Of a stretch of 64,000 bases of DNA, positions 15,764 to 63,237 are shown in pieces (position 1 is the stretch's first letter; every line of letters begins with the position of its first letter). The translations under genes and the position numbers were made by a program. The DNA is from Bacteroides sp. An322 (lineage in GTDB: Bacteria; Bacteroidota; Bacteroidia; Bacteroidales; Bacteroidaceae), in the NCBI RefSeq assembly GCF_002161765.1, contig NZ_NFIN01000002.1, positions 1-64,000 on the forward strand, given 5' to 3'. Under the pieces are notes generated by a model. The model was not told the origin of the DNA, made no database searches, and saw nothing but the letters and a program-made list of their open reading frames with translations.

Positions 15764-15826
15764 TACGATTAGTAATCGTATCGCGTGACGATTACTAATC
15801 GTACAGCTGAACGATTACTAATCGTA
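15764..15826. repeat. Three palindromes with 23-bp period
   Basis: ACGATTAGTAATCGTA at 15765-15780 and ACGATTACTAATCGTA at 15788-15803 and 15811-15826, with 7-nt spacers. Each is a 7+1+7 palindrome plus one base. It lies between the regulator stop and the sigma-factor promoter (about 250 bp upstream of it). It could be an operator cluster, or the same class of array as the 22-bp ones elsewhere in the window. Confidence 0.85.
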
Positions 15827-16075
15827 CCGGCGTAGCAGTTATATTGCATTTGCAAATACTATTATATTTATTGGGTAGATGAACGGTATTTCTATGTCAT
15901 CTGTATGCGGTAGGAATCGTCTTTGTTTAGTAAAGATGCGGATAAAGCTGCCCTTAGCGTATCATCCAATTATTTGAGACTCGATGTAACGGCTTTGTAA
16001 TTCGTTGGTAATAGGAACGTTACGATTTATCTTGTCTAACCCTATCCGTTGAGATAGCTTGACCCTTAAAAAATT

Positions 16076-25452: not shown

Positions 25453-25512
25453 ATGAAGGTACCTTCATCTGCCGTCGAAGGTATCTTCATCGCCCTACGA
25501 AGGTATCTTCAT
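25453..25512. repeat. 22-bp-period palindrome array, locus 1 (three units)
   Basis: Palindromes GAAGGTACCTTC, GAAGGTATCTTC and GAAGGTATCTTC begin at 25455, 25477 and 25499, exactly 22 bp apart, each followed by AT and an 8-nt spacer (CTGCCGTC, CGCCCTAC). The first extends to the perfect 16-mer ATGAAGGTACCTTCAT. Lies between two convergent genes. Same architecture as 40547-40634 and 63150-63237. Confidence 0.9.
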
Positions 25513-40456: not shown

Positions 40457-40546
40457 CGAAAAATATATTTTAGATTATACCGTCCGCCTTATTATATGAA
40501 GAGATTTTGAATCCTGCCTTTTTGTCATTCGATATCTGACGGAAAG

Positions 40547-40634
40547 GCATACGGCTTCATCGCCCGTTGAAGCAGGCTTCATTGGCTTATGCATACGGCT
40601 TCGTAAGCCGATGAAGCCTGCTTCGTAAAAAGTT
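40547..40634. repeat. 22-bp-period palindrome array, locus 2 (four units)
   Basis: Units start at 40547, 40569, 40591 and 40613, exactly 22 bp apart. The 12-mers are GCATACGGCTTC, GAAGCAGGCTTC, GCATACGGCTTC and GAAGCCTGCTTC, each followed by AT or GT and an 8-nt spacer. Units 2 and 4 are reverse complements of each other. A GTCA...TGAC word precedes the array, as (inverted) at 63230-63250. Lies between the antiporter promoter and the tRNA terminator. Confidence 0.9.
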
Positions 40635-40680: not shown

Positions 40681-40686
40681 TTTAGA

Positions 40687-40758
40687 GCGGAAGACGGGAC
40701 TCAAACCCGCGACCCTCAGCTTGGAAGGCTAATGCTCTATCGACTGAGCTACTTCCGC
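40687..40758 (-). tRNA. tRNA-Gly (anticodon TCC), second copy in transcript
   Basis: 72 nt, acceptor GCGGAAG paired with CTTCCGC, D-loop AGCTCAGTCGATAGAGC, anticodon loop CTTCCAA, T-arm GCGGGTTTGAGTCCCGT. CCA is not encoded. Identical to the other copy at 40863-40934. Confidence 0.97.
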
Positions 40759-40766
40759 AAGTTATG

Positions 40767-40849
40767 TGGGCAAGGATGGATTCGAACCACCGAAGGCATA
40801 AGCCAGCAGATTTACAGTCTGCCCCATTTGGCCACTCTGGTACTTGCCC
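40767..40849 (-). tRNA. tRNA-Tyr (anticodon GTA), second copy in transcript
   Basis: 83 nt with a long variable arm (GGCTTATGCC), anticodon stem-loop CAGACTGTAAATCTG, T-arm GGTGGTTCGAATCCATC. Acceptor stem GGGCAAG/CTTGCCC. It differs from the other copy by a compensated pair at the base of the acceptor stem. Confidence 0.97.
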
Positions 40850-40862
40850 TTGAGGAATGAGA

Positions 40863-40934
40863 GCGGAAGACGGGACTCAAACCCGCGACCCTCAGCTTGG
40901 AAGGCTAATGCTCTATCGACTGAGCTACTTCCGC
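40863..40934 (-). tRNA. tRNA-Gly (anticodon TCC), first copy in transcript
   Basis: 72 nt, same sequence as 40687-40758. Forms with the adjacent tRNA-Tyr a unit that is repeated with a 176-bp period. Confidence 0.97.
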
Positions 40935-40942
40935 AAGTTGTG

Positions 40943-41025
40943 TGGGCAAAGATGGATTCGAACCACCGAAGGCGTAAGCCAGCAGATTTACAGTCTGCCC
41001 CATTTGGCCACTCTGGTATTTGCCC
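40943..41025 (-). tRNA. tRNA-Tyr (anticodon GTA), first copy in transcript
   Basis: 83 nt, acceptor stem GGGCAAA/TTTGCCC and variable arm GGCTTACGCC. First gene of the tRNA transcript, starting 10 nt after the predicted transcription start. Confidence 0.97.
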
Positions 41026-41041
41026 TTTCTCAAATGCGCTG

Positions 41042-63149: not shown

Positions 63150-63237
63150 GAAGCCGGCTTCGTAGGCGGATGAAGCAGGCTTCGTGGGCAGATACATACG
63201 GATGCGTAGGGCGATGAAGCCGTATGCATTTTTGTCA
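63150..63237. repeat. 22-bp-period palindrome array, locus 3 (four units)
   Basis: Four 22-bp units from 63150: 12-mers GAAGCCGGCTTC, GAAGCAGGCTTC, ACATACGGATGC and GAAGCCGTATGC, each followed by a short GT/AT spacer such as GTAGGCGGAT. The last 12-mer is the reverse complement of GCATACGGCTTC found at locus 2, and the arrays are in opposite orientation. Lies between divergent SGNH-GH95 and susC genes. The remaining part of 63035-63500 holds only promoters. Confidence 0.9.

Follow-up and report, generated by a model that had tools for sequence, protein, structure and literature searches.

Dispersed four-unit palindromic arrays with a 22-bp step in intergenic regions of Bacteroides sp. An322

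Described repeat systems and the array at 40547

The nearest description that we found in the literature is BrickBuilt, a MITE of Porphyromonas gingivalis with 23-nt tandem units and predicted stem-loops, present in 19 copies that are always intergenic (PMC4596501). In each copy, a 23-nt direct repeat is present 1 to 22.8 times with no spacer, along with a long leader and tail and inverted ends (PMC4596501). The element described here shares with BrickBuilt a Bacteroidales host, tandem units with predicted stem-loops, a leader and tail, and intergenic placement. It differs in consisting mostly of four units of 12 + 10 bp at a 22-bp step, in contrast to a 23-nt unit of variable copy number, and in its shorter leader and tail. 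This separation is made by description and not by repeat sequence.

REP, BIME and REPIN sequences are alike in other ways, being short, dispersed, intergenic palindromes of mosaic structure that lie near gene 3' ends and have species-specific sequences. REP palindromes bear a GTAG or a CGTC tag at one end. Both classes are named in the title of PMC3733652. Unlike these, the element has four units, a 22-bp step and a conserved spacer core, and there is no Y1/RAYT gene in An322 or in three array-rich relatives (G065, G072 and G051). Two-way intrinsic terminators have a similar GC-rich stem, with an A tract before and a T tract after it, and lie between convergent genes. They differ from the element in that it has a four-unit layout, copies between divergent genes, and separate terminator-like hairpins beside some arrays. 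Integron attC sites and CRISPR are less likely kinds; the spacers of the arrays are conserved, in contrast to those of CRISPR. The element was not found described in literature on Bacteroides, Bacteroidetes and Phocaeicola, which is weak evidence of novelty because most subscription journals lay outside the search.

The window analyzed here is a stretch of 64,000 nucleotides from contig 12 of the An322 genome (3.43 Mb in 79 contigs). As shown in Table 1, a first-pass annotation had correctly placed four 12-mers at 40547, 40569, 40591 and 40613 in 22-bp steps, and none would be expected there by chance. Its observation that units 2 and 4 are reverse complements of each other holds without a mismatch. 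The span that it gave, 40547-40634, does contain the array, but the 12-mers stop at 40624 and the last ten bases are extra. We also defined a spelling-free pattern in which four GnA..TnC units have a YR step at each 12/10 border. This pattern fit the array with 0 mismatches, and 100 shuffles that preserved the dinucleotides of the window gave no match. The spacers are half-palindromic as well (ATCGG/CCGAT and GTAAG/CTTAC), so a symmetry center occurs each 11 bp. Folding of 40540-40634 predicted an energy of -44.1 kcal/mol (z = -5.6 versus shuffles), and the stem of the main hairpin is predicted to be ~23 bp long and uninterrupted.

Table 1. Coordinates of the arrays and their parts in the window
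Feature	Position	Strand	Description
Array core	40547..40624	+	78 bp; four 12-mers and three 10-nt spacers in 22-bp register
Unit 1	40547..40558	+	GCATACGGCTTC
Unit 2	40569..40580	+	GAAGCAGGCTTC; exact reverse complement of unit 4
Unit 3	40591..40602	+	GCATACGGCTTC; loop of main hairpin
Unit 4	40613..40624	+	GAAGCCTGCTTC
Leader	40514..40546 (CTGCC..TGTCA..CTGAC part: 40514-40540)	+	CTGCC..TGTCA..CTGAC..AAAG, 5' of array
Trailer	40625..40634	+	GTAAAAAGTT; consensus across family GTTTAAAAAC
Main hairpin (predicted)	40569..40624	+	stem arms unit 2 + spacer 2 and spacer 3 + unit 4; unit 3 as loop
Second copy of the family	63150..63227	- (leader-first)	same spelling; four units and leader
Array of other spelling	25455..25510	+	GAAGGTACCTTC, GAAGGTATCTTC, GAAGGTATCTTC; three clear units, 22-bp step

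A tRNA operon ends on one side of the array, and on the other side an antiporter gene starts that is putatively NhaP-like, judging from its sequence. Both are on the minus strand. The order of the operon is Gly-Tyr-Gly-Tyr, and at 40684-41027 the tRNA-Gly(TCC)-tRNA-Tyr(GTA) pair occurs twice in head-to-tail order, forming a 176-bp repeat with 97% matches. At curated scores, Rfam families in the window were limited to these four tRNAs, and the array gave sub-threshold hairpin matches only. We rejected the array as terminator of the operon because the operon has its own U-tailed hairpin adjoining the array (seen in the fold and not listed by the consensus scan).

The array at 25455, which sits between convergent genes, had been described as having the same period in a different spelling, and its step is indeed 22 bp. 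An array of another kind was observed at 15765-15827, ~32 bp behind a gene, with three units of a 15-bp palindrome (ACGATTACTAATCGT) and 8-nt spacers at a 23-bp step. It is resembled by a AAGATTATTAATCTT array near nhaP in G072, also with a 23-bp step.

A family of arrays in the An322 genome

An initial pattern search of the genome returned 32 matches, with 0 in the reversed control. Running a sequence model of the family, built from 21 copies, over the genome identified 80 separate arrays. Exactly four units were scored in 64 of these and three in 13 (some with a weak fourth), and two, five and six units were scored in one array each. All of the unit-to-unit steps (228/228) are 22 bp, even though the scoring tolerated steps that were 1 or 2 bp off. 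This agrees with the original view of the array as a mosaic of half-sites at a fixed step. The spelling-free pattern matched 103 times in the genome versus 1 in the reversed control, where overlapping registers are counted separately.

Across copies, the fixed positions are GnA..TnC and a GCC/GGC spacer core, and the middle is variable. Some form of the leader CTGCCAAAATGTCAGn7CTGACAAAAAT precedes unit 1 in most copies, and a GTTTnAAA trailer follows unit 4 in most. Many copies have AAAAAC...GTTTTT ends, and the flanks split into several subfamilies. The leader hairpin occurs respelled on both sides, as TGTCAG/CTGACA, TGCCAG/CTGGCA and TGGCAG/CTGCCA (e.g., L179 in G065, and L015), with TGCCAG/CTGGCA at the G065 locus L179 versus TGTCAG/CTGACA in the An322 genome. 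L056 and L015 (G000:C23:47850) represent the single clear unit expansion, in which near-identical GCACCCTGCTTC and GTTGGCTGAT units stand in a row. Six units were scored there and the step stays 22 bp.

Only 5 of the 80 copies overlap small predicted ORFs, and all others are intergenic. With genes called by a simple longest-ORF rule, the 76 copies that were classed by gene orientation comprised 25 convergent, 30 tandem and 21 divergent, compared with 8 convergent, 37 tandem and 18 divergent among background gaps in the same stretches (n = 63). Convergent gaps were therefore enriched (25/76 versus 8/63; Fisher p = 0.0086). The median distance of copies was 45 bp to a flanking 3' end versus 128 bp to a start. 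T-rich exits were found in many copies.

Pairing within arrays and gene orientation

The first-pass annotation further suggested that halves combine freely, which the arrays contradict. Mean folding energy over 78 arrays was -36.8 kcal/mol, compared with -32.2 kcal/mol after recombining half-sites across arrays (z = -7.7 for the real arrays), -32.4 kcal/mol after recombining whole 12- and 10-mers (z = -7.1), and -28.7 kcal/mol after recombining single columns (z = -15.2). Within a 12-mer, the left half was associated with the right half (z = 4.3 to 7.0). Within a spacer, mirror-image halves were avoided (z = -3.6 to -3.9). Inverted matches to unit 4 within arrays exceeded those in shuffled arrays for unit 3 (z = 4.5) and were also seen for unit 1 (z = 2.7). 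One conserved fold (u1:u2 + u3:u4, or u2:u3) was rejected, with covariation no higher than in shuffles. The pairing register varies from copy to copy, which leaves a fixed structure without covariation.

The folding excess follows gene orientation in the order convergent, tandem, divergent, by a post hoc test. Within-class shuffles gave folding z-scores of -8.4 for convergent, -5.0 for tandem and +1.2 for divergent copies, and the match to the consensus does not differ between these classes (p = 0.75). After adjusting for GC content, the excess in An322 was -8.3, -5.7 and +2.0 kcal/mol per array, respectively (Spearman 0.43, p = 1e-4). The gradient was conceived after the data had first been seen, and the relative G016 is its sole independent check, where the corresponding values were -13.6, -4.7 and -5.5 kcal/mol (Spearman 0.34, p = 0.039). 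In G016, only the convergent copies are set apart, with no difference between divergent and tandem copies. A pooled permutation of divergent copies versus the rest gave p = 0.0005. Among tandem copies, the transcribed strand folded no better than the other (p = 0.85), and the folding excess is absent from the young, homogeneous family of G065.

We would give an even chance to the array at 40547 belonging to a palindromic element that is dispersed between genes in the order Bacteroidales and acts in the manner of an E. coli BIME or a REPIN, with a hairpin at gene ends. The four palindrome-like 12-bp units of such an element, with 10-bp spacers between them, would have a leader and A/T tracts at their flanks, and the whole block would spread between genes as a single unit. 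Copies behind genes would be retained as hairpins at transcript 3' ends, either as two-way terminators or as 3'-end protectors, and the units within one copy would co-vary as a consequence. Species-specific spelling would arise as copies are replaced or homogenized inside each genome. We infer the RNA-level action (termination or protection) and the means of movement and of homogenization, and a hairpin function at gene ends is our best-supported guess. Against a terminator role, 21 of the 76 classed copies are in divergent gaps, where no terminator is needed. Against a hairpin at gene ends more broadly stand the tRNA operon's own U-tailed hairpin, the lack of strand preference in tandem copies, the lack of folding excess in G065, the resemblance of divergent to tandem copies in G016, and the lack of covariation for a fixed two-hairpin structure.

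Divergent copies retain the consensus while losing mutual complementarity, a pattern that would suit an array bound by a dimeric protein that reads the palindromes as a chromosome-organizing or regulatory site. The 22-bp step would then equal two helical turns, with centers each 11 bp and four dimers on one face, and spelling would vary between species because the specificity of the protein drifts. The invariant step accords with this geometry, the fixed positions (GnA..TnC and the GCC/GGC core) are those of a palindromic site with a varying middle, and one spelling prevails genome-wide within a species. Nevertheless, we consider protein binding unlikely, since complementarity between units and its dependence on orientation are unexpected for independent protein sites, and since sister species of the same genus respell the array wholesale, one of them at 23 bp.

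Distribution and respelling of arrays among relatives

Matches to the spelling at 40547 were found in 9 other genomes of the genus and in none of the 40 genomes searched outside it. The spelling-free pattern was positive in 20 of 61 genomes of the genus, although three of these (G042, G015 and G004) were also high in the reversed control. G042 and G015 (L330) visibly carry other 22-bp repeats (CGTATCCAGCTACGTTGTGGGA in runs; TGTAGGCTTATGCGTACGTACG). Over the GTDB set, the pattern gave at least 117 hits. Among the 117 GTDB matches listed, the GCC/GGC core occurs in one or more spacers of 57 and in two or more spacers of 30, with the latter belonging to Bacteroidales by title (Prevotella, Parabacteroides, Phocaeicola and uncultured). 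Their 12+10 layout is that of the An322 arrays, and their 12-mers, among them GAACAATTGTTC, GCAAAGCTTTGC, GAACATATGTTC and GCACCACGGTGC, are different. We excluded spelling-free matches outside Bacteroidales (Pseudomonas, Thiotrichaceae, Sinomonas, Streptomyces and others), most of which were direct repeats lacking the spacer core. A phage origin was rejected as well, with 0 of 117 viral-contig layout matches carrying the core. The exact sequence of leader plus unit 1 had no match across GTDB, from which records near the An322 genome were possibly omitted.

The arrays of G065 are of GAAGATACCTTC type, and this main spelling is that of the 25455 array in the window. Whole four-unit blocks with a common spacer order are dispersed there, and several share a flank of ~60 bp, implying that whole blocks were copied. 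The REP-associated Y1 transposase (PF01797) had no match in An322, G065, G072 or G051, and it matched in 6 of the 61 genomes of the genus, the array-bearing G016 among them. A Y1/RAYT transposase was therefore rejected as the driver in An322. No target-site duplication was evident by eye in copies of An322 and G065, and at the nhaP and L039 loci relatives offered no clean empty site, owing either to a break in synteny or to another array. The components suit an element resembling REP/BIME or MITE, but given the missing Y1 and the lack of a clean empty site or target duplication, we do not claim membership in either family.

Several arrays of G016, G065 and G072 occupy positions that also hold an An322 array, including ~7 of 16 in G016 by one- or two-sided synteny. 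At two shared positions, both members of a unit pair have changed spelling without loss of pairing. At L046/L141, the compensating change is from ACATACGGCTTC with GAAGCCGTATGC to GCATACGTTCTC with GAGAACGTATGC; at L101/L140, u1:u2 pairing is 12/12 and 11/12 within species and 7/12 across species. For 4 of the 7 shared positions, the An322 array is closer to the majority of other An322 arrays than to its counterpart, while two of the others have 87-91% identity and one is intermediate. At the L054 position, G016 (L147) has only two clear units where An322 and G072 have four. The expectation that the 22-bp step is maintained was borne out within the family in An322, where no drift in period occurred, but not in the sister species G072, which has an array (L325, L329; G072:C85) of 13-bp units (GCAGTATATATTC AACCGCGTAT) and 10-bp spacers with a 23-bp step. 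This array occupies the intergenic position of the 22-bp array L039 of An322, indicating that 22 bp is specific to the family and not universal.

It is conceivable, if somewhat improbable, that Bacteroidales have long-lived array positions at which the spelling turns over together in each species while the four-unit register, spacer core and internal complementarity are kept. This would need a novel trans-acting factor or copying process able to read arrays and rewrite them.

The G065 blocks with shared flanks and the patchy presence among genomes of the genus, including the three with a high reversed control, might also be explained by purely selfish MITE- or REP-like DNA without host function. 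In that case, the position at gene ends and the excess of hairpins would reflect tolerated insertions, from which a 3'-end bias is expected, or templated repair of imperfect palindromes. We doubt this explanation because positions are common to species, complementarity tracks gene orientation, and no transposase was found in a search of the Y1 family. A supercoiling device, in which gene-end palindromes would absorb or signal torsion between convergent genes by gyrase binding or cruciform formation and strong hairpins would be disfavored near divergent promoters, fits the same orientation gradient and the lack of strand preference, and E. coli BIMEs bind gyrase, but it appears very unlikely because the leader and A/T tracts are left unexplained and a gyrase or cruciform role here would be by analogy.

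If the array at 40547 does belong to a dispersed element with a hairpin at gene ends, then a widespread group of gut bacteria would possess its own type of palindromic element at gene ends, strictly laid out in four units and spelled differently from species to species. Such elements would occur without a REP transposase, where tested. They would explain transcript 3' ends in Bacteroidales in a way that is open to testing, and they would clearly exemplify how short repeats at fixed positions turn over in concert.
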